This document shows, piece after piece, positions 6,456-64,000 of a stretch of DNA of 64,000 bases. How positions within the stretch are numbered: the first letter of the stretch is position 1; every line of letters starts with the position of its first letter. The notes below the pieces were generated by a model. The model ran no database searches, was not told the DNA's origin, and worked only from the letters and a program-made list of their open reading frames with translations. The position numbers and the translations under genes were made by a program. Source of the stretch: Clavelina lepadiformis (taxonomy: Eukaryota; Chordata; Ascidiacea; Aplousobranchia; Clavelinidae); contig NC_135245.1 of the NCBI RefSeq assembly GCF_947623445.1, positions 2,921,501 through 2,985,500 of the forward strand. Reading direction: 5' to 3'.

Positions 6456-8177
6456 TCAGTTTGGCTTAATCTTCATTTCGGCTTTCTTCATGGAATAGTA
6501 ATTACCCTTCCACGGATACCAGCACATTCCCTTTGAATTATCCTGTCCACCGGTCAAGTAAGGACCATTCAAGTTTGCCGCATGGCAGCGATTGTACCAC
6601 CAAGCTCCTTCGTAATTCCGAGCGCAGTGAGCTTCGTGTCGATCTAAATCTCTATCTTTGGTACTGAACGGAAGTCCGTTGTGCTGTTGCAAAGCATCTC
6701 CTGCAAAAACAAGTCTCCAATTAATGAATTTCTAAGCACCTGTTATTTTCTGAATGCCTACCAGTGGTAAGTTATCACATAAGAGTTAATGTTGCCAAAC
6801 TGCGGGCCCCTGTTGCCAGCCATAATGCCTTTTATGAATTAATGACTAACTTTTATACCATAAACTCTACACCCAATACCCATCCCATTTTAGTTTTTAT
6901 TTTGATATTAAGGTCGGGGTTCCCTGCGTTAGGGTTAGGATTTCTTAAAGCGATAGTAATAACAAATTCATATTATGAATTTAGGTAGCTTATAACCTTT
7001 TCATATAAAATATAAACATGTTGTTTTTAATAAACTATACCTGCATTTCCAGAATAGCCTGTCGCAGTTAGACGATAATTGGAATCCTCTGACCCGACTT
7101 CAAATGAACTTAAGTATAAACGGACTTTAAACGCCAATGACTACTTGAAGCACATAATGACTTTTTGAGTACGACTTACCTGTATTCGGCAAATGCTCGG
7201 TTGTTTTCAAAATCTTCAATATCCACCCGAAGACGATAATTGCCATTCTTAGTAAGCTGGTGAAGGTCATTTAAACCTATAAAAAGATAAACCATCTTAA
7301 AGACCTAGATTTGGAGAATATGCAACTAATTACAAAAAAAAATCTTAGCCGAGTTCCATTGTGAGATGCATATTTTGAATACAAACCAAGCCAATATTCT
7401 GAGTCAACTTTTCCAAATCCGCGTTGATAATCTTCCCAGTTTCTGTAAAAGTTTTCACTTCCATCAAATCGTCGATGAAAAACCTATAAATGAAGGAAGT
7501 TATGAAAAGTTGTAATATGCATATTTTTACCCGAATAATCTTACCAGCCATCCGCCGTTCTCCGTCTCCATGTCGCAGTAAACTTCCCTGACCTTGCCGT
7601 TAATGACAACGCTCTTCACTCCACTTGTTGTCATTCCTCTTTCAAACAAATCCTGACAATCGCCTGATACTCTGGTTAGATTAATTATTCGCTGATCTGT
7701 AAAAAGTTGTGTAATTGCCGTTTCAAGCTTTCACTGAATCTACATTTACAATGTTCTTCATACGCATATAAATATAGCAACAAATGAAAAATAAGTTGCA
7801 ATACGTATACAATTTTTAGAATAATTGTCTAACACCATCCATTTAATGATAAAAATATCTTTATAATAAGCAACTGATAAGTTCGTTTTACCGATTTTGT
7901 TTGTTAGTTGATCTTCCAAGTCGGTGATTGTCATCTGCAATTCCCTAAACTCCTGCATCCACGTGTCACTGGCTCCGGGCTCCCCCTTATCCCCCATATC
8001 ACCTTTCACTCCACGGTCACCAGGCGTTCCAACAGGGCCTTTTTTACCAGGGGCTCCGGGTAATCCCCTTTCACCCAAGTTGTCATCGTCCCCACACGTT
8101 AGAGTGACCTGGCGTGTGCCTTGTGTCGCAGTAAAAAATAAGAAATTAATTACTGCAAACTGCAAAGTAGACACCAT
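6456..8177 (-). CDS. Ficolin-like lectin A (collagen + fibrinogen domain), intact
   Basis: The exons, in transcript order, are 8177-7892, 7696-7545, 7483-7387, 7276-7180, 7108-7041 and 6700-6456, all with GT/AG borders and consistent phase, giving 314 residues. Residues 1 to about 20 are a signal peptide. Cys28 may link chains. Residues 35-70 are twelve Gly-X-Y triplets, 71-95 a heptad-rich neck, and about 108-314 a FReD domain with Cys pairs 109/136 and 259/272 and a Ca-site-like DRDLD at 249-253. The pocket segment is WWYNRCH. An extra Cys (KGMC, 293) marks the minus-strand class. Family role: secreted, Ca-dependent binding of acetylated glycans, often with complement activation. The ATG at 8177 is the first in frame; the upstream in-frame GTG is not credible in a eukaryote. 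Head-to-head partner: gene B. Confidence 0.9.
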
Positions 8178-8480
8178 CTTCACGACAAGCCCTGGTACAA
8201 GCTGAGGGTAGAATAAACTTTTTCTTGCTTAAAATGGAGCAACGGATCGATTAAGTTTGCTAATTGTCTTACTACCCTACGTAAGCTTTCAATATGATGA
8301 TCCTAGTATTAGCAACTGATGTCGTATTTATAGGCGTCAAAGTCGTTCACAGTGAAGAAAAAATGAGCAAAGAATTTTGATCAACTCCGTAATCCAAATC
8401 TACGTCAATGGAAAATTCTTCTGTTTTGAAAAAAATCTTATGACGTAAAAAAATAACCACATTGAACTTGGTTTGCGTCA
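8178..8480 (-). promoter_or_regulatory. Promoter and 5' leader of ficolin A, lacking the CRE
   Basis: On the minus strand a TATA box (TATAAATA, 8325-8332) lies about 150 nt before the ATG. A conserved 3' splice site, CCCTCAG|CTTGTACCAG, places a possible mRNA body or trans-splice start at 8201. Compared with F and H, about 100 nt is missing near 8380, and this removes the TGACGTCA box present in nearly all other copies. Confidence 0.6.
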
Positions 8481-9364
8481 TTTCAGTCTTATGTAAGTTA
8501 ATCCGTTGATGGATTTGACAAACTTCTGAAACAAAACCCGCCTTTAACTTGTTGTTGTTAAGATTTCAAAACCGCTGTAAAGCAATTGTGGTCACGACCA
8601 CCTGCACAATAAAAGTTTTCATTGCCTCGAGTGTTTCACAAATGCGTCATAGTAGCAATTAATACAACGTCATGTGTTTGATTCCGTCAAGGTAGAAACT
8701 GTTGAGTTGTTTTTATAAACTTCAGATATTATCATTAGGATATTTATTGCTGCTATTCGTTGCTGTTAAAATGAGTTACTTTAATTCGGTGGTTTTTGAT
8801 CTAATAAAATTTCAATTAAATTACAAAAAAGTTTTCGCTGTCGAGATTTATGCCGTTTATTGGGTTCAGAGATAATTACATTAAAATTGTTTTTTGACAA
8901 TAAACCTCCATGGCAACGATAAATTCGCTACGAGTAAGAAACCATCTTTTTGAGGCAATGCTTGATATTCCACAGATTTTATTGGTAGACAAGTGACAAC
9001 AAAAAATGTTTTTGACTCGGTGCAAATTAATCACTATTTCTTGAAAAAACGCAATGAAGATTGCACTAAACTGAATTGGAGTGCACTGATGCGTTGTCGC
9101 TTTTCTGTGCTTTTTGTCACAACTAGTAAAGAGAACAAATAAACACTAATTAAAATATAAATTTTAATAATTATGCTGTTTCCGGTCTTTTTGTGAAAAC
9201 ATTCCTTTTCTATTCCCTCTTCGGACAAAATGATAGCAGGAGAAATAGCGCAAAATATGGTGAAGTGATTAGTGATAAGGATTACTGACAAATAATGCAA
9301 AAAAGTCTTAATTGCACACAGGAACGAGAATAAACACCATAAATAAACACAATTTTACTGCCAA

Positions 9365-9590
9365 TGACTTACCCAATTATACTTCAATTGAGGGCCAAGA
9401 ATTATTTGTAACCTATAACGGTCAAAAATTTACGTGCAAATATTGCGGCTAAAAGAGGCAAAAATAGATTACCTTTGCCAAAAAAGCTGGTTTTCCCAAA
9501 ATTCAAGAATGTGTTGTTCAGAGATCCGGCGTGGAAAAGGTTAACAGTTATAGAAAGGAAGTCTTGGACACAGCCAAGGAAGTAAGTACG
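9365..9590 (+). mobile_element. Gag-like zinc-knuckle fossil, family unresolved
   Basis: The translation resembles the region leading into a C-x2-C knuckle (FTCKYC) of a retroelement gag or ORF1 protein. It is an old, broken fragment. Related copies lie at about 37610-37820 and 53725-53930, with a truncated one near 19070-19130. It was carried along as the array duplicated, so its insertion predates the duplications. Confidence 0.45.
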
Positions 9591-10369
9591 AATTAGGAAC
9601 CTAATTGTTATCTCCTGCTGAGCCCAGGATCACACAAGCAAGGACAATCTAAATTCTAAAGGCTGCAGTCGTGATCAGCAGTGACCAGTTAACCAATTTT
9701 TAACCAACCAATTAATTAAGATAAAGAAATTCAAGGAATTAATAAGACGAGATTGTTCGAGCTTTCGACGAAAATGACAGAGTGTTAAAATGACCACACA
9801 GCTCAGCAGATGATAAGCATCAAAGAATTTAATCCATGGGACTTGGCGATAAAAAGTCATCAGTTTCATGCATCAACCGCAACTTCTCTGCGTGTGTGCA
9901 CAAAGATGCTCATTCGTTCATTTCCTGCAAATGTACCGCAGATATTTTCCATTGCATCAACCTGCTGTGGCACTTTTGAATGCTTCCTCGTTCCCAAGAA
10001 TAAAATATCACATAAACACTCTGAAAATCATCAACGCATGAGAAAGATGCCGTGCTGTCAAACTTTCCAATCTTAAGTTACACTCGAAGAGAGTTTTCTA
10101 CATTACATTCGCTATCATCAGAGGCTCTCAATATAGCACACATGTGAAATAATCAACACCTTGCCAAGTCAATCATGAAGTAAGGGATATGTTAACCCTA
10201 AATATCTTTACAGAATTAAGTGTATAAGTGTCACGCCGAATTCCTGTAAGTTCAAGATATCCCGCTTTAACGGCTAAACAACTAGAGTCTATCTTCGCCC
10301 TTCAACCTCTTAATAAGATTCAATCTCTTAACTCGAACAAGTGTAGAATAAAAACAACGTTATTCTCAG

Positions 10370-10620
10370 CATCGTTAGTAAAAAAGAATCAACATTTTCT
10401 TAAAGATCCCAAACGTAGAATAAAAGTCAACTCTTGTTCACCAAATACCGTGCAATCCACTCTGATTAGTCGGCGAGATAAAAAATCGCGAGCGGTGTAA
10501 CATGCCTCGGGGAGGAGTTGTAGGAACAAAAGTAAAACGTGTACGTGTATTTAAAACTCACCCAAACGATAAAACGAGTCACAAGTGGCACCTGGGTAAG
10601 ACATAAAGTCACTCATTGCG
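10370..10620 (+). repeat. Dispersed repeat (spacer form)
   Basis: A block containing GTAACATGCCTCGGGGAGG and AAAACGTGTACGTGTAT recurs in the 5' spacers at about 27500-27630, 38510-38790 and 55750-56000. In a diverged form it also lies in intron 4 of the plus-strand genes (about 13530-13750, 26010-26210, 30540-30730 and 58750-58950). The family is not recognised. Confidence 0.55.
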
Positions 10621-10664
10621 TGTGGAAACTTAGGTGTTTGCAGATTGTGCAGAATACTTTATTA

Positions 10665-10775
10665 TTACCATGTTCACTTGCTTGAATATATTATCGCTCA
10701 ACGTGGCGGGGGTGAGAAAGCCGCAAAAAGGAGAAACTATTTTAATTTCCGTATTGGCTATTAACTTGGTGGTTG
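10665..10775 (+). mobile_element. LINE endonuclease N-terminal fragment
   Basis: The translation reads like the start of an L1-type endonuclease: ILSLNVAGVRKPQ, compare the KIVSLNVNGLR start of such enzymes. Only about 35 codons remain, followed directly by spacer sequence. Copies lie at about 27700, 38850 and 56060. The fragment predates the array duplications. Confidence 0.5.
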
Positions 10776-11540
10776 AACAAACGAAACTTATTTAAGTGGA
10801 AATATTTTCACAAAAGTGTGTATTTTTAGTTTTTCTGTTTGTATGTTTTAGTAAAATAATATATGTTCATATTTTATATGCTTTGTGTATGTGGTTATGT
10901 GTTTGTCTTACCTGGTATTAGTAAAAGAACAAAAAGACATAGGTTGGTACTCTGAAGGTTTACTTTTGTTTTGATATAATTTTTTGATATTTTTTACACC
11001 TGCTTTCGCAAACATAAGCTTGCTTCTTCATGTATACTAAGAAAATGATATTAGTAGTACGGTATATCAGTCTGACGTATGTGGAGTATATACTGCATAA
11101 CCAACTTATGTTTTTCATAAATTGTAAGATCTGTTTCTACAATATACGTATAATTTGTGTATCGTCTATAAAAGGATTTCTGCTTTTCGGTTTTATTTAT
11201 ATGCTATAATTTCTAAACAAGATCGGTGGAATATGTAGCCCTCCTTGTGTTATTCTATTTTGACATTTTAACATTGATATCTAATAACAGCTTGATGTCT
11301 CCATTTCAGGGATTTCCCGTATCTGATAACACCAACGCAAAACATTATCACGACATTGGATAATGATCTTCAGAATCATGGAAAAGAAATTATTTTGCAA
11401 ACATTTCTGTTACAGTTAGTTACAAGAGCTACATTTTGTTGTAAACAATGATCCGTTATTGTCCAATGCGTAAGTTGTTGTTTGGTGATGACGTGAACAT
11501 AAACTGGTCAGTTTAGAAACACTTCAATTAAACATAAACT

Positions 11541-12344
11541 ATTTGTAATTATCTCTGAACCCAATAAACCGCATAAATCTCGATAGCTTAATTTTTTGCA
11601 AAGTAGTTGAAATATTATTCGATCAAAAGTCACCAAATTAAATTAGCTCATTTTAACAGCAACGAATAGCAGCAATAAATATCCTAATGATGATATCTGA
11701 AATATATAAAAACATCTCAACGGTTTCTACCTTGACTGAATCAAACGCATGACGTTGTATTAATTGCTACTATGACGCATTTGTAAAACACTCGGGGCAA
11801 TGAAAACTTTCATTGTGCAATTGGTCGTGACCACAAATGCTTTACAGCGGTTTTGAAATCTTAACAACAATAAGTTAAAGGCGGGTTTTGTTTCAGAAGT
11901 TTGTCAAATCCATCAACGGATAAACTTACATAAGAGTGAAATGACGCAAACCTGGTTCAATGCGGTACGTTATTTTCTAACGTCATTAGATTCTTTTCAA
12001 GCCACAAAATCTTTCCATTGACGTAGGATTAGATTCCAGAGCTTATTTTTATTCGCAATAATCTGAGATGTGTGACGTAGAAACCAAAAGAGAGGTGAGT
12101 GGTGATGTCACACTATATTGGAAATATTTTATCAAAGTGAAAAGCAAGATGTTTTGTTTATCAGTTTTTCTACCACTGATGATTTTGGCGTCTATAAATA
12201 CAACTTCAATTGCTACCAAGACCATCATGTTAAAAGTTGATGTAGGGTTGCAAAACGATTATCAAGCTCAAGCGATCTGTTGCACTTTTTCAATCAAGAA
12301 AAAGTTTATTTTAGCTTCAGCTTGTACCAGCGTTTGTGGTGAAG
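11541..12344 (+). promoter_or_regulatory. 5' arm, promoter and leader of ficolin B
   Basis: The inverted-repeat arm of palindrome A/B leads into the core promoter. The CRE-like box is changed to TGATGTCA (12103-12110). The TATA box TATAAATA is at 12193-12200. An upstream ORF opens at about 12229 and overlaps the true start out of frame. A 3' splice site TTTTAGCTTCAG|CTTG ends at 12320, which would remove most of the leader if used for trans-splicing. Confidence 0.6.
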
Positions 12345-14583
12345 ATGAAGTCTACTGTGCAATTTACAGTAATTAATTTCTTATTTTTTACTGCGACACA
12401 AGGCACACGCCAGGTCACTCTAACGTGTGGGGCCGATGACAACTTGGGTGAAAGGGGATTACCCGGAGTCCCGGGCAAGAGGGGCCCCGTTGGAATACCT
12501 GGTGATCGTGGGGTAAAAGGCGATAAGGGAGATAAGGGGGAGCCCGGAGCCAGCGACACGTGGATGCAAGAATTTCGGAAATTGCAGATGAGAATCATTG
12601 ACCTGGAAGATCAACTCACAAACAAAATCGGTAAAACGAGTTTTTAGCAGTGCTATTGATATATACGTATTGATATAATACTTTATAGTGCTTATAGTTT
12701 ACAATATTTTTATAACGTCTAACCTGATAAATATTATTAAATTGATATTTTACAATTGCGCTAGATTTTAAGTTATTTTCTAAAACGCTTTTTCGTCAAT
12801 GACGAAGACTGTAGCTAAATAATGTTCAATGGAATCTTGATATTATATTTGCTTGATGTTTTACAGATCAGCGAATTATAAATCTAACGAGGACAGGAGA
12901 TTGCCAGGATTTGTTTGAGAGAGGAATGACAACAAGTGGAGTGAAGAACGTTGCCATTAATGGCAAGGTCAGAGAAGTTTACTGCGATATGGAGACGGAG
13001 AACGGCGGATGGTTGGTAAGATAATTTGGGTAAAATTTGCATATTACAATTTTTAATAACTTTTATCATTTATAGGTTTTTCATCGACGATTTGATGGAA
13101 GTGAAAACTTTTACAGAAACTGGGAAGATTATCAACGCGGATTCGGAAGGGTTGACTCAGAATATTGGCTGGGTTTGTTCTAAAACAAATAATGTGTAAA
13201 AGAAATTTTGACTTCTAAAATCGGTTGAACTTATCAATTTCCAAGTATAGATTTTCAATATTTTTATCTTTTTATAGGTTTAAATGACCTTCACCAGCTT
13301 ACTAAGAATGGCAATTATCGTCTTCGGGTGGATATTGAAGATTTTGAAAACAACCGAGCATTTGCCGAATACAGGTAAGTTTTACAAGAAAAGTTATTAT
13401 GTGTTTTGACACGCGAAATTCTCCTTGTCTCGTCCTTCCCGCTTATACGGCTAGTGAAAAATATTCAACATTTGCTCTTTAAAGTTGCAATAAAATAAAC
13501 TCGCTTATATGGAGTTAAAAAGTAACAGTCATCCCATCATCATAGTTAAAGCAACGGCCGTTCTTGAAAAACCAAAACGTAAAATAAAAACCTCTTGTCC
13601 ATAAATCTACAGCGCAATAAACTATAATTAAGGTGCGAGGTTAATAATCGTGAGCAGCGTAACATGCCTTGTAGAGGAGTTGCAGGTAATGGCGTAAACA
13701 GTGTACGTGTACAGAAAACTTATTCAAAACAATAAAAATGTCAGACGTTCGGTGAAATGTTAGTATAGACGTAGTAACACATTTTGCGTAATAATGGTCT
13801 CAATAAATACAAGTAGAAAATATGTAAAGATAAATCTAAAAACACGTCACAGTACAGTTCAAAACGAACACGCGTGTCCGCATGGTCACTATACTTAAAG
13901 ATTTGTAAAGAATGAAATTCGTGTCACTCTTTAGTAGTTTATGGCATCTAAAGTTTACTAATTTTTATTATATGTACTTTAGTTCATTTCAAGTCGGGTC
14001 AGAGGATTCCAATTATCGTCTAACTGCAACAGGCTACTCTGGAAATGCAGGTATAGTTTATTGACATCAGCTTCTGTATATTTCATTAATGGAAAGGTCG
14101 TTTACATAAAAGTTGAAACCGAGCTCGTTTGCTCCACGTATTTTGAGAACTTCCAACGGTTAAACAAAAGTCTCCAAACTCTTCTGAGTGTATTTCCACC
14201 GACATAATTTGGTAAGTAAAGAGACTTTAGCAGATTTGGAAATTCAGCTCTGAAGTTACAATTTACCACAGCTAAGAAATTTCCACTTATTCATAACTTT
14301 CCATAATTTGCTCAAAACTTAGAGATCTGTTTTTGCAGGGGATGCTTTGCAACGTCACAACGGAATTCCGTTTAGTACCAAAGATAGAGATTTAGATCGA
14401 TACAGTGGAAATTGTGCTACGAGTTACGAAGAAGCTTGGTGGTACAATCACTGTCATGCGGTGAATTTAAATGGGCTTTACTTGACTGGTGGACAGATCA
14501 CAGCAAAGGGAATGGTTTGGTATCTTTGGAAAAACAGTCACTATTCCTTGAAGAAAGCCGAAATGAAAATTAAACCAAACTGA
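12345..14583 (+). CDS. Ficolin-like lectin B, intact
   Basis: The exons are 12345-12630, 12867-13015, 13076-13172, 13278-13374, 13983-14050 and 14339-14583, giving 313 residues in phase throughout. Residues 1 to about 20 are a signal peptide. Cys28 is followed by Gly-X-Y triplets (35-70), a coiled-coil neck (71-95) and a FReD domain (about 107-313). The FReD Cys pairs are 108/135 and 258/271. DRDLD at 248-252 is the probable Ca site. The pocket segment is WWYNHCH, with His270 before the pocket Cys where most copies have Arg. The C-terminal subtype is [15 protein letters not shown], the plus-strand class, without the extra Cys. Exon 2 is one codon shorter than in most copies, as in G. Confidence 0.9.
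13500..13760 (+). repeat. Dispersed repeat in intron 4 of ficolin B
   Basis: This is the intronic form of the spacer repeat at 10370-10620, sharing GTAACATGCCTTG and the GTGTACGTGTA stretch. The same intron position is occupied in D, E and I but not in minus-strand genes or G. Confidence 0.5.
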
Positions 14584-15240
14584 ATCTTGTGGAAGTGTCC
14601 TCATACTTTATAATTTGCCATTGATTCTGTGTTTTTTTGTTCCATCTTGTAAATACTCTACAAATACACGGAGAAGAAAAGTTTAAAAATTGTTTAAGTT
14701 GTCCAATGTCAGATCTTTTATTTATACAGTGAGATCAGCGCTATGATGGAATCGTTCTTCAGTGATATAACATGCAATCCAATGTTCTAATTGCATTTTC
14801 AAAGCTTCCATTTGTCCCATAGATTGAGCACAAAACATAGCGCAACAAATGTTTAGTTTTAACAATTAACAAAGATAACAGCGTGTTGTCTAAGAAGGTC
14901 AGAAAACACTTGATTCTTGAAAATTGCAAATGAAAACATAAAGTTAGACGTCCAATGAAATCTGATGAAAAATGCTAAAACTAACCGGTTAGTTTGCACT
15001 CGAACATAAGCTATGATATGAAAATATGCACAATTTTAAGTAAATATCCATAAAAGGTAAAATTTTAAATCTGGCTAAATCTTTTGCATCTATTTCATAA
15101 ACGATTTTAGATGCACTAAAATTCGTCAGAAAATGTCTTTCTTCTTTTAGTAATTATAACTTGTTTATAATTATTTTGAATTTATTTCTCCATGTTACGT
15201 TAAAAGTAGGTAAAAACCAAGTTTGATGTCACTTTAACGG
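14584..15240. repeat. 3' flank of ficolin B
   Basis: This untranslated 3' flank is shared with D (from 27040), E (from 31569) and I (from 59781), including TTGTCCAATGTCAGATC. No gene is visible. Confidence 0.6.
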
Positions 15241-20805: not shown

Positions 20806-21898
20806 GGTTTGGTGACACTTAATCACGCGACACTTAATCACGCGACGCTTAATCACCGACACATAATCACTAGGACATTTAATCACGCGACATTTAATCA
20901 CACATTTACAATGTTTATTTACATTTACAATTTACAGCAATGTTATGCATGGGAAATGTAAGCAACTGCACGAAGATAGACTAAAATCTCGCTTGACAGA
21001 TAACGGTCAACTGTGTTTTGCACACGCAGTTTCAGTGCTTTGTACCGCATTGGAATAGAAGGTTGAGTACCAGCAATTCCTTGCAGAAACGTTGCACGTT
21101 GCATTTGAATGTCTTTTTCAATTCCCTGTATGAAAGTCCACAATGTCGGGTGGTGGCATTGAAAAAGCACTTGGAGAACAAACCTTCGACTGCATTTGTG
21201 GTTCTTGCAATGCAACCTGCTCCGGCTTCGTAATGATTCCAACTTTCGATTGGAAAGATGGCTGAGCCGTAATTTTCACCACGTCCCGGACGTCGTCTGC
21301 CTCTGATATATGTGTGTTCGAAATACGAAAGCAGCTCAGGCATCTTCTCGTGATCGGGCATGCTATCAGCTAAGATCAGAAATGACTAGACTACGTCAGA
21401 GGAAGGGACCATGGCTAAGGTTGGTAAACACCGAACAGCTGTTCTTAATTCGTCATTAGACTCGTAGTCACATTTCATGCCAATTTCATTAACTTTGCGC
21501 AGGACGCTTTGCGTTAGGTGGAAATAGAAATGTTCTGAAGAGATGAAATAGAAATGAAAAATAGAAAATGTTCTAAAAGAAAGACTAATAGCCTTTGGCT
21601 TTAGGCCAACCTTAAAAGCAATCCACATCGCCATCCCCACAGAGAGATGCACACGAGCTTGAATTACTGAATTTTCCTCACGCTTTTCCGACATCCAAGT
21701 GATTATGTGTCGCGTGATTAAATGTCGCGTGATTAAGTATCCAAGTCGCGTGATTAAATGTCCTAGTGATTAAGTATCCAAGTCGCGTGATTAAATGTCC
21801 TAGTGATTATGTGTCGCGTGATTAAGTGTCCTAGTGATTATGTGTCGGTGATTAAGCGTCGCGTGATTAAGTGTCGCGTGATTAAGTGTCGGTACACC
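20806..21898 (-). mobile_element. Mutator-like (MULE) DNA transposon, truncated
   Basis: The element is flanked by a perfect 9-bp target duplication AAATTTTAC (20797-20805 and 21899-21907); the uninterrupted site is seen near 50355. The terminal inverted repeats start GGTTTGGTGACAC and GGTGTACCGACAC. They continue as a tandem array of a CACGCGACACTTAAT-type unit, about 100 bp on the left (to about 20905) and about 200 bp on the right (from about 21692). The 1.09-kb element keeps only the C-terminal part of a MULE transposase on the minus strand. It sits in 3' spacer DNA and is absent from the other spacer copies, so it is younger than the duplication. Confidence 0.85.
20943..21694 (-). pseudogene. 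MULE transposase C-terminal remnant
   Basis: Minus-strand frames read, in order: a LRKVNEIGMKCDYESNDELR block (about 21440-21510), then MPDHEKMPELLSYFEHTYI (about 21305-21361), then IESWNHYEAGAGCIARTTNA (about 21190-21250), and finally FIQGIEKDIQMQRATFLQGI (about 21080-21140). This matches the order in animal MULE transposases. The pieces lie in more than one frame, and the N-terminal and catalytic core parts are missing, so it is not functional. Confidence 0.8.
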
Positions 21899-22223
21899 AA
21901 ATTTTACTGTAGAACTATAGCTTTCTTTCTGCGCTACGTATAGAAAGAAATCACTTCGTATAAATCGAAATCTCATCGTTAACAATAACTCAAACAATCT
22001 ATATCTTATGAACGAAGTTCCATTGCGTGCCATGTCACTGACACAAAATGTTATTATATCACTGATTTTACTAATAAGTCAGTAGAAGATCGAACATTTA
22101 ACCAAATGTAACAATTTTGTATTTCGTGTGTTTCTGGCATTTGCAAGCTACGAGAAAAAGTACAGGAAAAAATGGTAAAGCATCTTTTATTTTACACCAG
22201 CAAGTTATCTCGCAGTATCAAAC
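21899..22223. repeat. End of 3' spacer before orphan exon C
   Basis: This segment continues the spacer interrupted by the MULE and matches about 6160-6455 and 50360-50648. No gene. Confidence 0.7.
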
Positions 22224-22468
22224 TCATTTTGGTTTAATCTTCATTTCGGCTTTCTTCAAGGAATAGTAATTACCCTTCCACGGATACCAGCACATTCCCT
22301 TTGAATTGTCCTGTCCACCGGTCAAGTAAGGACCATTCCAGTTTGCCGCATGGCAGCGATTGTACCACCACGCTCCTTCGTAATTCTGAGCGCAGTGAAC
22401 TTCGTGTCGATCTAAATTTCTGTCCTTGGTACTAAACGGAAGTCCGTTGTGACGTTGCAAAGCATTCC
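22224..22468 (-). pseudogene. Ficolin C: orphan last exon
   Basis: This is a single open exon 6 of the minus-strand ficolin class (81 codons with stop), in phase with the other copies and carrying the [17 protein letters not shown] subtype. The usual intron 5 follows upstream until about 22805, where homology to the array stops before exon 5. Exons 1-5 are absent. The Ca-site Asp is changed (DRNLD instead of DRDLD), NLNG is NWNG, and the C-terminus is K rather than N. This is a relic of a deleted gene. Confidence 0.85.
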
Positions 22469-22805
22469 CTGCAAAAACAGGTCTCCAATTAATGAGTGAT
22501 TTCTAAGCACGTGTTATTTGCTGAACGCCTCCCAGTGGTAAGTTATTAATTAAGAGTAAATGTCGCCAAACTGCGGGGCCCTGTTGCCAGCCATAACGCC
22601 TTTTATGAATTAATGACTAACTTTTATACCATAATCTCTACCACAGTACTCATCCCATTTTAGTTTTCATTTTGATATTACGGTCGGGGTCCCCTGCGTT
22701 AAGGTTAGGATTTCTTAAAGCGATAGTAATAACAAATTCATATTATGAATTTAGGTAGCTTATGACCTTTCGATATAAAATATAAACACGTTGTGGTAAA
22801 TAAAG

Positions 22806-31969: not shown

Positions 31970-32045
31970 ATCAGTTTTATCTCTACTTCATCTCCACGAC
32001 AAGGTCAAACGGGAGATGAAGCAGCTCCACCTTGACACTCTTCGC
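31970..32045 (+). mobile_element. LINE 3' tail relic
   Basis: The translation reads LHLHDKVKREMKQLHLD, the C-terminal block that ends the LINE fossil at 2810-4125. Only this tail is retained at the start of the 3' spacer. The gene I side has the same at about 60188-60255. Confidence 0.6.
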
Positions 32046-38954: not shown

Positions 38955-39026
38955 AACTGGGTGGAGGGGGAGAGACAAGCACCTTCATGTGATCCCCTCC
39001 GTCAGTACCATATCTAACAAGAAGAT

Positions 39027-39882
39027 ATGCGAAGCGAAGATTGTCAAAACCGAGCAATTACCCAGACCAGAGCTCACTGCAGGGTGGCGAGGGAAACGCC
39101 CTTCTCAGGGCGTGGCAGCTCTTCTGTCGAAAAGTACCGTAGACCAACCGTCCTGCAGCTGAACACCGAGGGCATCACCGCCAGCAAAATCAGTGTCATA
39201 GAACACCTGGCCAACAAACATCAAGCCCTCATCATCGTCCTCCAAGAGACCCACTGCACATCTATGGATAAGTTGGTAATAACCAACTTCAAACTCGCAG
39301 GCGCAATGCTCAGCAGGAAACACGGCCTCGCCACGTTTGTCCATGATCAACTGACAACTGAGCTGGACCCTAGAAGACCAATCCCCAGCCCAATCGGAAC
39401 TCGAGTGGCTCTGTGTAGACATAACAGGCTACAAGATCATCAATATCTACAAGCCCCCACCCTTGCGACTTACACCAGCAGCCATACCAGTGTTCCCCCA
39501 CCCCAGCCTCTACGTCGGTGACTTCAATAGCCACCACACGGACTGGGGTTACAAAACAACCAACAACGATGGAGAAAGCCTGGCTGCCTGGGCGGCCAAT
39601 AACAACCTCACCCTACTCCACGATCCTAAGGTTGCTGCTAGCTTCTTCTCCGGGCGTTGGAACAATGGTAAAAACCCAGACCTGGCATTCGCAAGTATGG
39701 GCTCCGATAGTCGACACCCGCACAGACGCGTGCTAGAGAAGTTCCCTAGGTCCCAACATCGACCCTCGCTTGTCACCGCCCCCAAACTCGCATTGCCTGT
39801 CCCGAGCAAGCTGGTTAAGCGTTGCAACTTCAGAAAGGCCGATTGGAAATGCTACGGCTTCAATTCTAAAAAAAGACGCTAA
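39027..39882 (+). pseudogene. LINE endonuclease domain, frameshifted
   Basis: The endonuclease is read in two frames. The first (39027 to about 39385) has VLQLNTEGITASKISVIEHL and the catalytic LQETH. The second (about 39390-39882) has GYKIINIYKPP, then LYVGDFNSHHTDWGY with the D-x-N motif, and KFPRSQHRPSLV with the late His. The catalytic residues are therefore all present, but a frame change near 39385 and another near 39865 separate them from each other and from the RT frame. The insertion is thus not intact as it stands. Confidence 0.85.
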
Positions 39883-42136: not shown

Positions 42137-42184
42137 TTGGGGAAAGAAGAAACGCTCAAACGACGAAGAAGAAACTTGGTGGTT

Positions 42185-46689: not shown

Positions 46690-48204
46690 TATGTTGAAAT
46701 GCAAGTTTAACACTTTTTAATATTTTTGATATTTCCGTCCACTGCCGTAACTTCAGAACATTAACCCTTTCCCGAAAAACACCTTCCGGTCAACTTCAAC
46801 CTTGTTTGAACAAAAAGTTGATTTTTATTTAATATGTGTTTTATGCATTCGAGATTGTTTCCGGTAGATTAATACAATTTCGGGATAATGTCAAGTGAAG
46901 AAGTCTCCATTATTAAAAGTGCAACGGGACAGCGTTGTGGCCCCCGTAACTTCGAATCTTAACGTCCATTGCCACGAACACTGAAGGGCTCTTTTGCCTG
47001 ATATTTTTCTGAATTATGGTCGCCCTAGAGAATCTGATGTATTTCATCAACAAACAACAAGGATTTATCAGGTTTTGCGCAAAAATCAATTTGTCCGAAG
47101 TAAGGGCTGCATATAAAAGTTTAAATTCAATGTGACAGATGTAGTGTCTGACTCTTTGTTGCGGACAATTTTGCTGTTTGTGTGGTGAAACATTGTTGCA
47201 AAGCAGTATCACTCATCCAAAATAGTGGACACTTGTGGTTCTGATTACAATTTCTCTGCCTAGTGCCTGTGGTTTTATATGAACAAATGCAATGAACCAT
47301 ACGAAGCAATGATTCGTTCAGCGTCATTCAAGCGTAAATAAATGTAAGTGAAACAGTTCGTGAGAATCAGCGCAAATCGAAAACTCTAAAAATGTAACAA
47401 TTATTTGGGTGACTCAAAAGGACATACGTCGTTCATCTATTGCGCGGGGACAATAAATCGCCAACATCAACTAACAATGGTAAAAATTAACTTTGTCATA
47501 AATGATGTCATTGATGATGATCATGATGTCATTTAAACTGTAACAAGCAGCAGCATAAAACACCTTGATGTTAATATTTCAAATTCTGAATAACATATCC
47601 ACTGGATTTTCCACAACCCCGTCAAACGCATGACGTTGTATTGCTGCTATGACGCAATAATTGAGGAAACACTCGAGGCAATGAAGAGTTCATTCTGCAG
47701 ATGATCGTGACCACAATTGCTTTACAGCGGTTTGGAAATCTTAACAACAACAAGTTAAAGGCGGGTTTTGTTTTAGAAGTTTGTCAAATCCATCAACAGA
47801 TTAACTTACATAAGAATTAAATGACGCAAACCTGGTTCAATATGGTTTTTATGTAAGGTCATTAGATTCTTTTCAAGCCAGAAAATCTTTCCATTGACGT
47901 TGGGTTGGATTCCGGAGTTGATTTTTATTCGCAATAATCTGAGATGTGTGACGTAGAAAGAAAAATTTAGGAGATTGGTGACGTCAAACAATGATGGAAA
48001 TACTTTATCAAAGCGAAAAACAAGATGTTTGTTTATCATTTTTTCTACCATCGATGATTTTGGCGTCTATAAATACGACTTCAATTGCTACCAAGACCAT
48101 CATGTTAACAGTTGGTGTAAGGTTGCAAAACGATTATCAAGCCCAAGCGATCTGTTGCACTTTCTCAATCAAGAAAAGGTTTATTTTAGCCTCAGCTTGT
48201 ACCA
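46690..48204 (+). pseudogene. Orphan ficolin 5' region (promoter without gene)
   Basis: This matches the region upstream of gene D (22850-24350) throughout. It includes the CRE (47979-47986), TATAAATA (48068-48075), the upstream ORF, and the CCTCAG|CTTGTACCAG acceptor (about 48190-48204). The sequence then jumps directly into the LINE tail and 3' spacer, so the start codon and all exons are absent. Junction: GTACC-AGCTCC, with AGCT shared by both parents. Confidence 0.8.
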
Positions 48205-50648
48205 GCTCCGCCTTAACACCAACATGTGACCTTCTTTCTCTTCGAGCATGCAAACTTTTTTGAAGCTTTGAAAGACGTTATTACTATTCAATGAATCCGT
48301 GTACACTAGGGAGACAGCGTATAAAACATGACACAGCTAAAACCTATTTATGGTTTTATTAAATAGATCGTTAAAAACAAAGAAGTGATTATTTCACCCT
48401 CAGCGACCTCGTACATAGGACACGCTGCCTGTTGTTAAAACTGTTAAGACTTTAATGGATATTAATTTTAGTCTAGAAGATTTAGGTTAGATTTAATGAA
48501 CTATTTGTTAAAATATTTAAGTTCTGCAAACCAGAAGCCGTGAAAAGTAGTTTTAAAAGTACCATTTTTCGGTGAAAGAGTGACAGCCTAAAAACAACAA
48601 TTAAGAAAAATACAACTTCCATGAGAACTTTATGATAGAAATATTTCACTAAACACATGAACAGAGCAGATCAACTACAGAGAACATATTGTTATTTTGA
48701 GAGTTGTTTAGCTGTCACACAGATTTTGCTACAGCCTCAAAACTCCGAAGGAAGTAGCATTTTAAATATGAAAACTTCACCGCACTGGATGACAGAACAT
48801 TTCTACAAAGTGTACGTCATTGGCGGGATGTTGACAATTGATCCGAGAATCATCGCTTGAACCTATAAACATTAATGGGTAAAGATATAGTGTACGCTAT
48901 TTTATATTCAAAACTTTAAAGTTAAGACCTTATTCCGTGTTAAGTTTCGATAATGTTGACGAAAATAAAACTTGTAAGCTATGATGGTTGCCTACAAAAT
49001 ATTTATGCTTATTCACGAGATGTGTTTTTACATAAATACTGTATGACAAGCCAAGGTCATAATCAAACCAGTTTTAAAGCTAACTAGCAGTAATATAACC
49101 TGGCAAGCTCGAAACCAGTTTGAATGACTGAAATAGACGTCAATCAAAAAATTTTTAATAGACCTAAAATTCAAAACTAACAGCTTTAAAAACTTCAACC
49201 ATTTAGTTACAGCGCAATAAAGAACTTGCTCATCACGAACAGTTAACGAAAAAAAAAAGTGCAAGGCTAAACCCAAAGTTTTGTAAAACATGTAAGATGG
49301 TAATAACACAATTGTGTTACAACATGATAGGTTAGCATCGCCACCAACTCCACAAAATAAGTTCGGTTAAGTTTTACAAGTTTACATAAAATTTACCATT
49401 ATCATCAGCATTTTTATCACCATCAACAAAATATTGAATGTTCAACTCACCAAACGTACCAAGGCAAGCTTTCACTCTACGCTCCAATGTTGAGCTGACC
49501 AAGCCAACGCACAAGATCTCACAACTGCGACCTTCTCAGCCACCGTCAAACTAAAATGACCACGAGTTTCTTTCTTTGTTTGTGACGTCACCTGGCATTC
49601 GACGGGGCGCGCGTTAATTAAAGTCTAATTTCCTGCCAAAATCATCCGCGTAAAACGCTAAGGAGTAACTTTGAGTTTGAAACCGCAATCTATGATATCT
49701 ATGATGTCTACGATGTCTAGAGAAAATAAAATAAAAACCATCAAAGTTGAAACCATCAATAAACTTCAAGATGGAAACATTGACATAATTATTTTGTCGT
49801 TTTACATTCATAAGACTCTCAATTTTTCGGTATGACGACACACTTGCGTAATTTTTCGCGTCAGAAGGTTATCATCATAAAAGTCACATAAAAGCATACC
49901 AGCAAATACTTCTTTCCTTGCCATAAACAGAGTGTTTTCAGCAAAAAAAATACAATCTATAACAAAAGACAAAAACGTTTCGCATATAGAAAACATCATG
50001 GTGCGTGTTTGTGGGGGCGTGGGTATGTTAATTTATGATGTTTGCTTATTTAGTTATTAATTTAGTTCATGGTATTGTTGGAAAAATTCATTAAACGATT
50101 TACTTCTTTACCGCTTCTGCGTTTCAACATTTGGAAAATTTTTGTGAATTAACAAAACTTACACTTTCGATAATTGTCGTGAAAACTTGAGGAATGTGCT
50201 GTAAACCTGAAAATTGTTTCAATGTTTACAAAGTTAACTTTCAAAATTGGTTAATGAAATAGTGTAAATTTTTTGTGGATAAACATAACTTGCTCTCTTT
50301 ACTTGAAAAGTACAAAAGGGCTGTTTTCTTTATGTGAAGGTTAATTAATATCAAATTTTACTGTAGGACTGTAACCTACTTATTGCGATTCGTAAATCGA
50401 AATTTTATCGTTAACAATAACTCAAACAATCTATATCTTATATATGGAGTTCAATTGCATGCCATGTAACTGGCTCAAAACGTCATTATATCACTGATTT
50501 TAATGACAATAGAAGACCGAACATTTAACCAAATGTAACAATTTTGTATTTCGTGTGTTTCTGGCATTTGCAAGCTGTGATAAAAGCACAGAAAAAATGA
50601 CAAAGCAACTTGCATTTCATACCAGCAAGTTATCTTGCAATATCAGAC
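48205..50648. repeat. 3' spacer, copy 4
   Basis: The spacer starts inside the LINE tail relic (CTCCGCCTTAACACCAAC) and runs to the last exon of H. It has the CRE at 49583-49590. No gene; a 67-codon open frame at 48657 is not conserved in other copies. Confidence 0.7.
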
Positions 50649-52369
50649 TCAGTTTGGTTTAATCTTCATTTCGGCTTTCTTCATCGAATAGTAATTACCC
50701 TTCCACGGATACCAGCACATTCCCTTTGAATTATCCTGTCCACCGGTCAAGTAAGGACCATTCAAGTTTGCCGTATGGCAGCGATTGTACCACCAAGCTC
50801 CTTCGTTATTCTGAGCGCAGTGAAATTCGTGTCGATCTAAATCTCTATCTTTGGTACTGAACGGAAGTCCGTTGTGATGTTGCAAAGCATCCCCTGCAAA
50901 AACAGGTCTCCAATTAATGAATTTCTAAGCACCTGTTATTTTCTGAATGCCTACCAGTGGTAAGTTATTACATAAGAGTTAATGTTGCCAAACTGCGGGC
51001 CCCTGTTGCCAGCCATACTGCCTTTTATGAATTAATGACTAACTTTTGTACCATAATCTCTACCACAGTACTCATCTCATTTTAGTTTTCATTTTGATAT
51101 TAAGGTCGGGGTTCCCTGCGTTAAGGTTAGGATTTCTTAAAGCGACAGTAATAACAAATTCATATTATGAATTTAGGTAGCTTATAACCTTTTCATATAA
51201 AATATAAACATGTTGTGGTAAATAAAGTATACCTGCATTTCCAGAGTAGCCTGTTGCAGTTAGACGATAATTGGAATTCTCTGACCCGACTTCAAATGAA
51301 CTTAAGTATAAACGGACTTTAAACGCCAATGACTACTTGAAGCACATAATGACTTTTTGATTACGACTTACCTGTATTCGGCAAATGCTCGTTTGTTTTC
51401 AAAATCTTCAATATCAACCCGAAGACGATAATTGCCATTCTTAGTAAGCTGGTGAAGGTCATTTAAACCTATAAAAAGATAAACCATCTTAAAGACCTAG
51501 ATTTGGAGAATATGCAACTAATTACAAAAAAACATCTTAGGCGAGTTCCATTGTGAGATGCATATTTTCAATACAAACCCAGCCAATATTCTGAGTCAAC
51601 TTTTCCAAACCCGCGTTGATAATCTTCCCAGTTTCTGTAAAAGTTTTCACTTCCATCAAATCGTCGATGAAAAACCTATAAATGAAGGAAGTTATGAAAA
51701 GTTGTAATATGGATATTTTTACCCGAATAATCTTACCAGCCATCCGCCGTTCTCCGTCTCCATGTCGCAATAAACTTCCCTGACCTTGCCGTTAATGACA
51801 ACGCTCTTCACTCCACTTGTTGTCATTCCTCTTTCAAACAAATCCTGACAATCGCCTGATACTCTGGTTAGATTAATTATTCGCTGATCTGTAAAAAGTT
51901 GTGTAATTGCAGTTTCAAGCTTTCACTGAATCTACATTTACAATGTTTTTCAAATGCATATAAATATAGCAACAAATGAAAAATAAGTTGCAATACGTAT
52001 ACAATTTTTAGAATAATTATCTAATACCATCCATTTAATGATAAAAATATCTTTATAATAAGCAACTGATAAGTTCGTTTTACCGATTTTGTTTGTTAGT
52101 TGATCTTCCAAGTCGGTGATTCTCATCCGCAATTCCCTAAATTCCTGCATCCATGTGTCGCTGGCTCCGGGCTCCCCTTTATCCCCCATGTCGCCTTTTA
52201 CCCCACGTTCACCAGGTATTCCAACGGGGCCTTTTTTACCAGGGGCTCCGGGTAATCCCCGTTCACCCAAGTTTTCATCGTCCCCACACGTTAGAGTGAC
52301 CTGTCGTGTGCCTTGTGTCGTAGTAAAAAATAAGAAATTAATTACTGCAAACTGCAAAGTAGACATCAT
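50649..52369 (-). CDS. Ficolin-like lectin H, intact
   Basis: The exons, in transcript order, are 52369-52084, 51888-51737, 51675-51579, 51468-51372, 51300-51233 and 50893-50649, all in phase (314 residues). Domain order is as in A. The collagen block has GERG in place of GDRG, and the neck reads [14 protein letters not shown]. The FReD has [10 protein letters not shown], pocket [13 protein letters not shown] and the minus-class [17 protein letters not shown] end with the extra Cys. Exon 1 and the upstream region are nearly identical to F; the introns resemble A and J more. Confidence 0.9.
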
Positions 52370-54505: not shown

Positions 54506-54513
54506 GTAATAAC

Positions 54514-55458: not shown

Positions 55459-55466
55459 GTAATAAC

Positions 55467-57565: not shown

Positions 57566-59780
57566 ATGATGTCTACTTTGCAGTTTGCAGTAATTAATTT
57601 CTTATTTTTTACTGCGATACAAGGCACACGACAGGTCACTTTAACGTGTGGGGACGATGACAACTTGGGTGAAAGGGGATTACCCGGAGCCCCTGGTAAA
57701 AAAGGCCCCGTTGGAATACCTGGTGATCGTGGGGTAAAAGGCGATAAGGGGGATAAAGGGGAGCCCGGAGCCAGCGACACATGGATGCAGGAGTTTCGGA
57801 AATTGCAGATGAGAATCACTGACTTGGAAGATCAACTCACAAACAAAATCGGTAAAACGAGTTTTCAGCAATGTTATTGATATATATTAAATATTGATAT
57901 ATTTTTATAGTGCTTAAAGTTTAAATTAAATTGATATTTTACAATTGCGATAGATTTTAAGTTATTTCTTAAAACGATTTTTCTTCAATGACGAATACTG
58001 TAGTTAAGTAATGTTCAATGAAATCTTTATATTATACGTACTTGATGTTTTACAGATCAGCGAATATTTAATCTGACCAGAGCATCAGTTGATTGCCAAC
58101 ACTTGTTTGAGAGAGGAATGACAACAAGTGGAGTGAAGAACGTTGTCATTAATGGCAAGGCCAGAGAAGTTTATTGCGAAATGGAAACGGAGAACGGCGG
58201 ATGGCTGGTAAGATTATTTGGGTATAAATATGCACATTGTAACTTTTCAAAACTTCCTTCATTTATAGGTTTTTCATCGACGATTTGATGGAAGTGAAAA
58301 CTTTTACAGAAACTGGGAAGATTATCAACGCGGATTCGGAAGGGTTGACTCAGAATATTGGCTGGGTTTGTTCCAAAACAAATAATTTCAATTGAAATGT
58401 GCAAAAGAAATTTAGACTCCTAAAATCGGTTGAACCTATCCATTTCCTAGTTTATATCTTCAACGTTTTTTCTGCTCATAGGTTTAAATGACCTTCACCA
58501 GCTTACTAAGAATGGCAATTATCGTCTTCGGGTGGATATTGAAGATTTTGAAAACAATCGAGCATTTGCCGAATACAGGTAAGTTTTATAAGGAAAGTGA
58601 TTATGTGCTTTTGTCATGCCAAATTCTCCTTGTCTCGTCCTTTTCGCTTTTACGCCTAGTCGAATATTTCCAACATTTGCTCTTTGAGCTTGTTATAAAA
58701 TAAACTCGCTTACATGGAATTAAAAAGTAACAGTCATCCCATCATCATAGTTAAAGCATCGGCCGTTTTTGAAAAACCAAAACGTAAAATAAAAACCTCT
58801 TGTCCATAAAACCGCAGCGCAATCAACTATAATTAAGAGACGAGGTTAAGAATCGCTGGAAGCTTAAAATGCCTTGGGGAAGAGTTGCAGGTAATGGCGT
58901 AAACCGTGTACAGAAAATTTATTCAAAACAATAAAAAATATCACAAGTTCGGTAAAATCCTAATAAAAACGTTAAGTCACATATTTTACAAAAAACTGGT
59001 CGCAACAATACATGTAGAATATTGCTAAATATACATCTAAAAACACATCACAGTACAGGTCAAAAAGAACACGCGTGTCGGCATGGTAACTGCAATCAAA
59101 GATTTATAAAACGTGTACATTGTGACACTTTTTAGTAGTCAATACTTATGGCGTCTAAAGTTTGTACTTTATATTTCAGTGCATTTAAAGTCGGGTCAGA
59201 GGATTCCAATTATCTTCTAACTGCGACAGGCTACTCTGGAAATGCAGGTATAGTTTATTGACAACATTTTCTGCATATTTCATTAATGAAAAGGTCGTTT
59301 ACATAAAAGTTGAAACCCAGCTCGTTTGCTCCATGTGTTTTGAGAACTTCCAACGCTTAAACAAAAGTCTCCAAACTTTTGTGAGTGTATTTCCACTGGC
59401 ATAATCTGGTGAGTAACGGGATTTGATCGGATTTGGAAGTTCAGCTCTGAAGTTACAGTTTACCACAGCTAAGAACTTTCCACTTACTCGTCACTTTTTA
59501 TAATTTGCTCAAAGCTTAGAGATCTGTTTTTGCAGGGGATGCTTTGCAACATCACAACGGACTTCCGTTTAGTACCAAAGATAGAGATTTAGATCGATAC
59601 AGTGGAAATTGTGCTACGAGTTACGAAGGAGCTTGGTGGTACAATGCTTGCCATTGGGTAAACTTGAATGGGCTTTACTTGACTGGTGGACAGATAACAG
59701 CAAAGGGAATGGTTTGGCGTCCATGGAAAAACAGCCACTATTCCTTGAAGAAAGCTGAAATGAAGATTAAACCAAACTGA
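57566..59780 (+). CDS. Ficolin-like lectin I, intact
   Basis: The exons are 57566-57851, 58056-58207, 58269-58365, 58482-58578, 59180-59247 and 59536-59780, in phase (314 residues). Signal peptide ([12 protein letters not shown] end), Cys28, 12 Gly-X-Y triplets, neck and FReD. Local differences include CQHLFERG for [18 protein letters not shown] for [16 protein letters not shown] for SSFEVG, and YLLTATG for YRLTATG. The pocket segment is [13 protein letters not shown], with Ala before the pocket Cys. The end is plus-class ([17 protein letters not shown]). The closest relative is E, and the downstream flank is nearly identical to that of E. Confidence 0.9.
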
Positions 59781-60187: not shown

Positions 60188-60262
60188 TATCTCTACTGCA
60201 TCTCCACGACAAGGTCAAACGGGAGATGAAGCAGCTCCACCTTGACACCAACATGTGACCTT
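60188..60262 (+). mobile_element. LINE 3' tail relic
   Basis: LHLHDKVKREMKQLHLDTNM, the same tail as at 31970-32045 but retaining the ACACCAACATGTGACC stretch that E/F has lost. It is also the sequence joined to the orphan promoter at 48205. Confidence 0.6.
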
Positions 60263-62615: not shown

Positions 62616-63856
62616 TCAGTTTGGTTTAATCTTCATTTCGGCTTTCTTCATGGAATAGTAATTACTCTTCCACGGATACCAGCACATTCCCTTTGAATTA
62701 TCCTGTCCACCGGTCAAGTAAGGACCATTCAAGTTTGCCGCATGGCAGCCATTGTACCACCAAGCTCCTTCGTAATTCCGAGCGCAGTGAACTTCGTGTC
62801 GATCTAAATCTCTATCTTTGGTACTGAACGGAAGTCCGTTGTGATGTTGCAAAGCATCCCCTGCAAAAACAGGTCTCCAATTAATGAATTTCTAAGCACC
62901 TGTTATTTTCTGAATGCCTACCAGTGGTAAGTTATTACATAAGAGTTAATGTTGCCAAACTGCGGGCCCCTGTTGCCAGCCATAATGCCTTTTATGAATT
63001 AATGACTAACTTTTATACCATAAACTCTACACCCAATACCCATCCCATTTTAGTTCTCATTTTGATATTACGATCGGGGTCCCCTGCGTTAAGGTTAGGA
63101 TTTCTTAAAGCGATAGTAATAACAAATTCATTTTATGAATTTAGGTAGCTTATAACCTTTTCATATAAAATATAAACATGTTGTGGTAAATAAAGTATAC
63201 CTGCATTTCCAGAGTAGCCTGTTGCAGTTAGACGATAATTGGAACCCTCTGACCCGACTTCAAATGAACTTAAGTATAAACAGACTTTAAACGCCAATGA
63301 CTACTTGAAGCGCACAATGACTTTTCGAGTACGACTTACCTGTATTCGGCAAATGCTCGGTTGTTTTCAAAATCTTCAATATCAACCCGAAGACGATAAT
63401 TGCCATTCTTAGTAAGCTGGTGAAGGTCATTTAAACCTATAAAAAGATAAACCATCTTAAAGACCTAGATTTGGAGAATATGCAACTAATTACAAAGAAA
63501 TATCTTAGCCGAGTTCCATTGTGAGATGCATATTTTGAATACAAACCAAGCCAATATTCTGAGTCAACTTTTCCAAACCCGCGTTGATAATCTTCCCAGT
63601 TTCTGTAAAAGTTTTCACTTCCATCAAATCGTCGATGAAAAACCTATAAATGAAGGAAATTATAAAAAATTGTAAGATGGATATTTTAACCCGAATAATC
63701 TTACCAGCCATCCGCCGTTCTCCGTTTCCATGTCACAGTAAACTTCCCTGGCCTTGCCGTTAATGACAACGCTCTTCACTCCACTTGTTGTCATTCCTCT
63801 TTCAAACAAATCCTGACAATCGCCTGATACTCTGGTTAAATTAATTATTCGCTGAT
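62616..63856 (-). CDS. Ficolin-like lectin J, partial (5' exon beyond window)
   Basis: Exons 2-6, in transcript order, are 63856-63705, 63643-63547, 63436-63340, 63268-63201 and 62860-62616, all in phase. Exon 1 (signal, collagen, neck) would begin roughly 50 nt beyond the right edge, judging from the 195-nt intron 1 of A and F. The FReD is complete. The last exon has WWYNGCH, with Gly before the pocket Cys, and WKSNYYS in place of WKGNYYS, with the minus-class extra Cys. Introns 4-5 and the 3' spacer are nearly identical to F, but intron 3 is of the A/H type. Confidence 0.85.
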
Positions 63857-64000
63857 CTGTAAAAAGTTTTGTAATTGCAATTTCAAGCTTTCACTGAATC
63901 TACATTTACAATGTTTTTCAAATGCATATAAATATAGCAACAAATGAAAAATAAGTTGCAATACTTATAGAATTTTTAGAATAATTATCTAATACCATCC

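Follow-up and report, generated by a model that had tools for sequence, protein, structure and literature searches.

The DNA analyzed here, a window of 64,000 nucleotides from chromosome 6 of the ascidian Clavelina lepadiformis (bases 2,921,501–2,985,500), carries ten ficolin-type genes or gene remnants, A to J, as an initial annotation had counted. We located them by searching six exon peptides against the window and 90 kb of flank and then modeling the exons; the data are one assembled haplotype of one species, analyzed from sequence alone. The array continues beyond both ends of the window, with genes K, L and N and remnants M and O to the right and one remnant to the left. It covers about 102 kb in total (−11.1 to 91.4 kb in window coordinates), flanked by a sulfate-transporter gene (−14.7 to −12.8 kb) on the left and by INTS2 (94.2–97.3 kb) on the right. 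The following features are given in window coordinates.

6456–8177, minus strand: gene A, six exons, intact (314 amino acids), minus class, with AG/GT splice sites and an open frame
8380–8880, minus strand: upstream element of A, with 13 genome matches, all in the array
8881–11543, no strand: central spacer of A/B, 2.66 kb, from the arm ends in self-comparison
12345–14583, plus strand: gene B, six exons, intact (313 amino acids), plus class, head-to-head partner of A
21898–22804, minus strand: remnant C, a terminal exon (22230–22472) and intron 5, 88% identical to 6158–7034
24361–27039, plus strand: gene D, broken as modeled, with exon 1 altered in length by one base and AG missing at two exon starts
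29380–31568, plus strand: gene E, intact (314 amino acids), plus class
34387–36270, minus strand: gene F, intact (314 amino acids), minus class
35208–35480, minus strand: intron 3 tract of F, of G/K type inside a minus-class gene
38955–42172, plus strand: non-LTR (long terminal repeat) retrotransposon in the F/G spacer, with Pfam RVT_1 at 121 bits on 39737–42133
43766–45541, plus strand: gene G, whose exon 3 is broken by a 4-base insertion, forming a third class with K in trees, head-to-head partner of F
47529–48205, plus strand: orphan upstream region, matching gene upstream regions, stopping about 14 bp short of where the start codon would lie and fused to the 3′ flank of H
50649–52369, minus strand: gene H, intact (314 amino acids), minus class
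57566–59780, plus strand: gene I, intact (314 amino acids), plus class, head-to-head partner of H
62616–64337, minus strand: gene J, intact (314 amino acids), minus class, extending 337 bp beyond the window, partner of K
71803–73594, plus strand: gene K, beyond the window, partner of J, in one class with G
83526–90292, plus strand: gene N, beyond the window, a chimera
7892–8177, 35985–36270, 52084–52369 and, in J, 64052–64337, minus strand: exon 1 copies of the minus genes, with raised synonymous divergence

Twelve genes of the array have six exons (A−, B+, D+, E+, F−, G+, H−, I+, J−, K+, L+ and N+). Ten of these models are intact, with 313–314 amino acids and AG and GT at every internal exon end; of the copies inside the window, A, B, E, F, H, I and J have intact open models, whereas D and G are disrupted and C survives as a remnant. 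The five remnants are C and M (minus, with the terminal exon left), O and a copy at −11.1 kb (both plus), and the orphan at 47.5–48.2 kb, which appears to be the upstream region of a lost plus gene. The order in the window is − + − + + − + − + −, so that the strand alternation described initially largely stands, except that E follows D on the plus strand. Neighboring minus copies are spaced by about 12–16 kb.

Self-comparison of the window (E ≤ 1e-10) returned 124 repeated pairs of at least 200 bp and revealed the inverted arms, confirming that A/B, F/G and H/I are head-to-head inverted repeats. The A/B arms (6452–8880 and 11544–14587) enclose 2.66 kb. The F/G arms (about 34.4–37.1 and 42.9–45.6 kb) are separated by 5.7 kb, including the non-LTR retrotransposon of about 3.2 kb, and the H/I arms (about 50.6–53.2 and 56.8–59.8 kb) by 3.6 kb, including an insert of about 1 kb. 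Arm ends and insert sizes thus agree, for all three pairs, with the central spacers of about 2.5 kb that had been proposed once inserts are removed. Part of the A/B spacer (8881–10700) has further copies within the array, with a dispersed repeat at about 10.2–10.6 kb. The retrotransposon also occurs in the J/K spacer (about 66.9–70.2 kb); the block holding it is 97.6% alike, and the insertion probably preceded the duplication of its block.

The genome matches of the 500 bp upstream of A are the twelve genes and the orphan at 47.5 kb. Since all 13 lie within the array, we rejected a dispersed transposon as the identity of this element. TGACG motifs, the core of CRE/ATF (cAMP response element/activating transcription factor) sites, occur on either strand four to eight times per gene within 700 bp upstream in 12 of 12 genes, compared with shuffle means of 0.87–1.27 and a background of 1.58 per 700 bp over the whole 154 kb, promoters included; for I and K, at least one of 300 shuffles reached the observed number, and because the copies are related, the counts are not twelve independent observations. 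The sequence TATAAATA stands at −152 or −155 in ten of the twelve genes, and G and K read CATAAATA at that site. The upstream 700 bp (e.g., 8178–8877) are possibly a shared inducible promoter.

The ficolin-like identity assigned to the family was borne out by the Pfam search, which we ran on two of the ten intact models, A and I. Fibrinogen_C (PF00147) scored 264.8 bits in A and 254.7 in I (cut-off 22), and Collagen (PF01391) 27.0 and 27.2 bits (cut-off 27.2, so that A lies slightly below). All ten intact models contain 12 uninterrupted Gly-X-Y triplets, and by eye the models have a hydrophobic N-terminus and one early cysteine, a putative signal peptide. In the PDB, the fibrinogen domain of A matches FIBCD1 (E = 2.4e-63), ficolin-1 (1.2e-58) and tachylectin-5A (TL5A; 2.5e-56), as well as tenascins and MFAP4, and the DxD of the calcium site (Asp393 and Asp395 in FIBCD1) is retained. 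For the acetyl pocket S1 of FIBCD1, the relevant passages of PMC3908420 name Tyr405, His415, Tyr431, Ala432 and Trp/Tyr443. Mapped by hand on the PDB-match alignment, where gap placement could shift the mapping, Tyr405 has a counterpart in all intact copies but H (Asn) and N (Phe), or 8 of 10, and His415 in all but N (Tyr), or 9 of 10. A MASP-type motif, PGKxGP, is found in 9 of 10 intact copies and reads PGKKGA in F; Xaa is Lys or Arg, at a position described in the motif section of PMC3179595 as typically hydrophobic aliphatic or Met. The proteins are probably soluble recognition molecules that feed the ascidian lectin complement pathway.

Divergence along the gene and between classes

A tree of intron 5, exon 6 and the 3′ flank resolves three clades, each with 100/100 support: A, F, H and J; B, D, E, I, L and N; and G and K. 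The head-to-head pair thus predates the expansion of the array, and its units were copied in tandem. Measured block by block among the 12 genes, distances are class-specific in introns 1, 4 and 5 and in the 3′ flank (0.28–0.46 between the minus genes and B, E and I; 0.03–0.08 within the minus genes), with intron 5 and the 3′ flank 41–51% different between strands. Exons 1–5 are 0.02–0.09 apart between the minus genes and B, E and I, with the lowest values in exons 3–5 (0.02–0.05). Distances in exon 1 are 0.068 within the minus genes and 0.084 between them and B, E and I, and exon 2 shows a mixed pattern, with 0.029 among the minus genes, 0.100 among B, E and I, and 0.089 between the two groups.

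For the coding sequence, we compared the minus genes A, F, H and J with the plus genes B, E, I and L; K and N belong to other classes and were set aside, so that eight of the ten intact genes entered the comparison. Synonymous divergence between the strands (codon bootstrap intervals in parentheses) was 0.28 (0.19–0.39) in exon 1, 0.27 (0.14–0.47) in exon 2, 0.10 (0.045–0.164) in exons 3–5 and 0.45 (0.24–0.74) in exon 6. Fixed amino-acid differences numbered 0, 1, 0, 0, 0 and 15 in exons 1 to 6, so that exon 6, with 82 of 315 columns, holds 15 of the 16. In FIBCD1 numbering, assigned by hand, these 15 lie at about 398–400, 403–404, 413, 417, 422, 429–430, 432, 436 and 442–444, in or beside the S1 pocket region. 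With 15 of 16 fixed differences in exon 6, the two strands thus share the stalk and differ in the head. What is new here is that, to judge by these comparisons, exons 3–5 are nearly common to both strands and the terminal exon, with its presumed ligand pocket, is class-locked. Among B, E, I and L, exon 5 has a ratio of nonsynonymous to synonymous divergence (dN/dS) of 2.03, which comes from 0.5 synonymous and 2.8 other changes per pair.

The longest alignable arm pieces are 79.7% identical in A/B (1267 columns), 83.5% in F/G (2247) and 82.8% in H/I (1957); within A/B, identity is 89.0% in the upstream ∼500 bp and 81.0% in the terminal exon. Long direct blocks (at least 1.4 kb) of same-class copies are 84–95% identical, e.g., 28.2–35.2 kb and 56.4–63.5 kb (94.3% over 7.1 kb) or 42.2–48.2 kb and 70.2–76.2 kb (93.9%). 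Arms at 80–84%, compared with 84–95% for same-class direct copies, therefore point to an old divergent pair that was copied in tandem. G is just 81–84% identical to the other plus genes, though on the same strand, so that a common strand does not by itself make copies similar. In line with the copy-number change anticipated by the initial annotation, the array contains block duplications of 6–7 kb at 94% as well as gene remnants.

Exchange between copies

Two clear traces of opposite-strand exchange are present, in intron 3 of F and in the chimera N, but arm-to-arm conversion within a palindrome, which this arrangement had been thought to favor, does not emerge as the main force (see below). 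Intron 3 of F (35208–35480) is 99–100% identical to G and K and 39–77% to A, H and J in the windows that align, and the adjoining windows are minus-class at 98% and 100%. Beyond the left one of these, around intron 2, F belongs to no clear class (minus 91%, G/K 93%, B/E/I 93%). The tract ends on the right inside exon 4, where a base is common to F, H and J against G and K, and on the left somewhere in exon 3 or beyond. Its donor was either G, the palindrome partner of F, or K, the duplicate of G.

Gene N is minus-like in its upstream region, intron 1 and exon 2, and plus-class from intron 3 onward. Its 5′ end groups with the minus genes (100/100), and a grouping of its 3′ end with them is rejected (approximately unbiased (AU) test, p = 1e-4). 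The DNA upstream of N includes minus-side spacer (82461–83215, inverted to 8380–9118, 91%), and of M, its minus neighbor, the terminal exon alone is left. N would most simply be explained by an inversion between arms and a later deletion. The second chimera, L, stems from exchange between direct copies: its front groups with D and its back with E and I (100/99 each), with the switch near the end of intron 4. Among the minus genes, the front links A to J and F to H (0.010 each over the 200 bp preceding the start codon), whereas at the back F goes with J (0.003 in intron 5).

The pairwise homoplasy index (PHI) rejected a single history of the coding sequence (p = 0.0005, the lowest value that 2000 shuffles allow) and likewise of the −450 to −200 block (p = 0.002), the near 3′ flank (p = 0.012) and exon 1 (p = 0.015). 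It gave no rejection for −700 to −450 (0.65), −200 to −1 (0.22), intron 1 (0.72), exon 2 (0.08), intron 4 (0.29), intron 5 (0.18) and exon 6 (0.62). A GENECONV-like run test reached p < 0.001 in 21 of 32 opposite-strand and 16 of 34 same-strand pairs; because this test takes no account of rates that vary along the gene, and its longest opposite-strand runs often lie in the slowly changing upstream block, it serves solely as support for N and for the exchange between F and G/K.

Readings of the locus

We consider it probable that the locus is a tandem array of secreted ficolin-type lectin genes, built on an old head-to-head unit, that grew mainly through same-strand copies with some cross-strand exchange and combines a shared front with a class-locked exon 6. 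The sequence shows that the two members of the pair diverged long before the expansion, that the array then enlarged chiefly as copies on one strand duplicated and recombined with each other, and that inverted copies exchanged too, at least twice. Exons 3–5 hardly differ between the strands, exon 1 is hardly class-structured, exon 2 is mixed, and exon 6 and its surroundings are class-specific. Introns 1, 3, 4 and 5 and the 3′ flanks, 28–51% apart between strands, may be too diverged for easy recombination, and this drift would limit exchange to stretches anchored in exons of the gene's front part. The outcome would be several lectin heads on one collagen stalk and one promoter, occasionally reshuffled by crossover or inversion.

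Several observations weigh against this reading. Among the minus genes, synonymous divergence (dS) of exon 1 is 0.207, compared with 0.032 in the adjoining intron 1 and 0.020 in the promoter (raw), and exon 1 misfits simple homogenization because its dS exceeds the distances on both sides; we read the pattern as repeated import from other copies, although a local mutation hotspot may account for it as well. Synonymous constraint could be another cause of the low divergence in exons 3–5. The common front is not common to all genes, because G and K differ in exon 5 too (0.143 from the minus genes), and exon 1 of N groups with neither class, its placement with the minus genes being rejected (AU p = 0.017). 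In exon 6 averaged dN/dS is below 1 (0.17–0.41 between classes, 0.68 among the minus genes), which leaves positive selection on this exon unsupported. Furthermore, the Tyr431 position is empty and position 443 is Asn or Ser in all ten intact copies. Because two S1 aromatics of known acetyl-binding relatives thus have no counterpart, the ligand and even lectin activity are putative; acetyl binding is not claimed, and “ficolin-type” refers to architecture. Finally, partners are not significantly closer than other pairings: in an exact permutation of A–B, F–G, H–I and J–K among 24 possible pairings, the true one ranks second over 15 blocks (far 3′ flank left out) and third also without intron 3, in a test that is weak because F/J and G/K are duplicates.

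The same permutation bears on the idea that the inverted arms of each pair, by exchanging with one another, are the main source of change, which we regard as unlikely. The F intron 3 tract, shared with the partner G or its duplicate K, and the inverted-arm recombination in N would fit it, as would the six of 16 blocks (exon 1, intron 2, exon 3, intron 3, exon 4 and intron 4) in which the true pairing has the lowest distance of all 24, ties counted in its favor. However, in the ten other blocks the true pairing ranks 4 (exon 2), 5 (near 3′ flank), 23, 10 and 13 (upstream), 21 (intron 1), 19 (exon 5), 17 (intron 5), 13 (exon 6) and 10 (far 3′ flank), and the permutation shows no significant partner effect over the whole arm. 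Moreover, the arms are less alike than the long same-class direct copies (yet G and the other plus genes, too, are only 81–84% alike), and the longest duplications and chimera L involve direct copies. Plain birth-and-death, i.e., duplication, drift, decay and purifying selection, with codon or splicing constraint on exons 3–5 and an inverted order without a role, is somewhat unlikely: it accommodates the broken D and G, the five remnants and the dN/dS of 0 to 0.42 in exons 1–4 (nine comparisons), but the F intron 3 tract is non-coding and thus beyond coding constraint, N and L are chimeric with strong support, and PHI rejects a single history of the coding sequence.

That the head-to-head order stems from false joins of collapsed or misplaced haplotypes is highly improbable. 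Some blocks are 95–98% alike, and the assembly account in PMC10884593 states that haplotypic duplications were detected and removed during the assembly process, which would fit such joins; against them, the same account gives HiFi reads at 117-fold coverage and a quality value (QV) of 67.4, and the array lies inside one contig, between the sulfate-transporter and INTS2 genes. Arms that are 16–20% different do not suggest an assembly-made palindrome. In the genome searched (209 Mb, 95 contigs), no match outside the array exceeds 61% identity among the matches listed (best 126 of 630 candidates scored), and among these there are no close extra haplotype copies on other contigs.

Going beyond the probable reading of a tandem array with a shared front and locked heads, the locus might, as a possibility we hold tentatively and think more doubtful than not, act as a germline cassette system. 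Exon-anchored exchange between the two strands, inversions and unequal crossovers would then move a common promoter and stalk onto at least three class-locked heads, and populations would carry different head sets and orientations.

Related loci and known systems

Further ficolin-type exons lie in the same genome at C4:8122088–8187903, in the order − + − + over about 66 kb, and may form a second head-to-head locus. Two more ficolin-type genes, a same-strand tandem at C6:6485001–6492000, are by exon about 41–64% identical to the array. Among the best 150 of 521 candidates scored in the other genome-wide family search, C3:22.5–25.1 Mb has many fibrinogen-domain matches, mostly exon-sized with some long frames, and C5:22.4–23.8 Mb and C9:12.9–13.3 Mb have many, mostly in long open frames of about 230–260 amino acids. 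Our searches of open PMC papers found no report of this array, and for Clavelina they led to work on F-type lectins; PMC12373286 is on lancelets, and “fibrinogen” and “ficolin” do not occur in the portion of its text examined. Within the window, minisatellites at 20814–20901 and 21699–21893 (units of 15–45 bp, some with common GTGATTAA and GTCGC words) adjoin remnant C.

By definition, mollusc FREPs carry an immunoglobulin-type domain ahead of the fibrinogen domain, whereas Pfam gives Collagen and Fibrinogen_C alone for A and I. Palindromes of the sex-chromosome type, which are maintained by conversion, have nearly identical arms, whereas the longest Clavelina arm pieces are 79.7–83.5% identical. 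The Sp185/333 (SpTransformer) proteins of sea urchins are unrelated to ficolin-type proteins. At the level of the locus, their genes resemble the Clavelina array in being clustered immune genes with mixed orientations, segmental duplications, mosaic genes and proposed gene conversion, according to the locus descriptions in PMC3091723 and PMC5103432. In contrast, those descriptions place GA/GAT microsatellites beside the genes and note almost no pseudogenes, whereas the Clavelina array has two broken copies and remnants, and none of the 13 tandem-repeat rows of the window is a microsatellite beside all genes.

The amphioxus VCBP2/5 genes, as portrayed in the locus sections of PMC2632668, are likewise protochordate immune genes with large inverted repeats or palindromes, LINE-like (long interspersed element) inserts and copy-number haplotypes. 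They differ in encoding immunoglobulin V and chitin-binding domains, and their palindromes vary between haplotypes, whereas the Clavelina data are from one haplotype. FIBCD1, ficolins and tachylectin-5A share the fibrinogen domain and its DxD with the Clavelina proteins; the difference from FIBCD1 lies in pocket residues Tyr431 and Trp443 (as named in PMC3908420), which the ten intact copies lack. For other ascidians, the gene accounts in PMC5465252 cover ficolin transcripts, MASPs and a lectin complement pathway, with ficolins in Halocynthia roretzi, Botrylloides and Botryllus. These share the ficolin architecture of collagen and fibrinogen domains, but those accounts name transcripts and describe no head-to-head array.

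We read the locus as a putative diversifying innate-lectin array comparable to the Sp185/333 and VCBP loci. A shared stalk with a class-locked binding exon would offer a concrete, testable case of innate recognition diversified without homogenization, and a single locus here displays the different contributions of inverted and direct repeats. What is distinctive compared with the Sp185/333 and VCBP clusters is the regular head-to-head unit together with the split between an exchanged front and a locked terminal exon.

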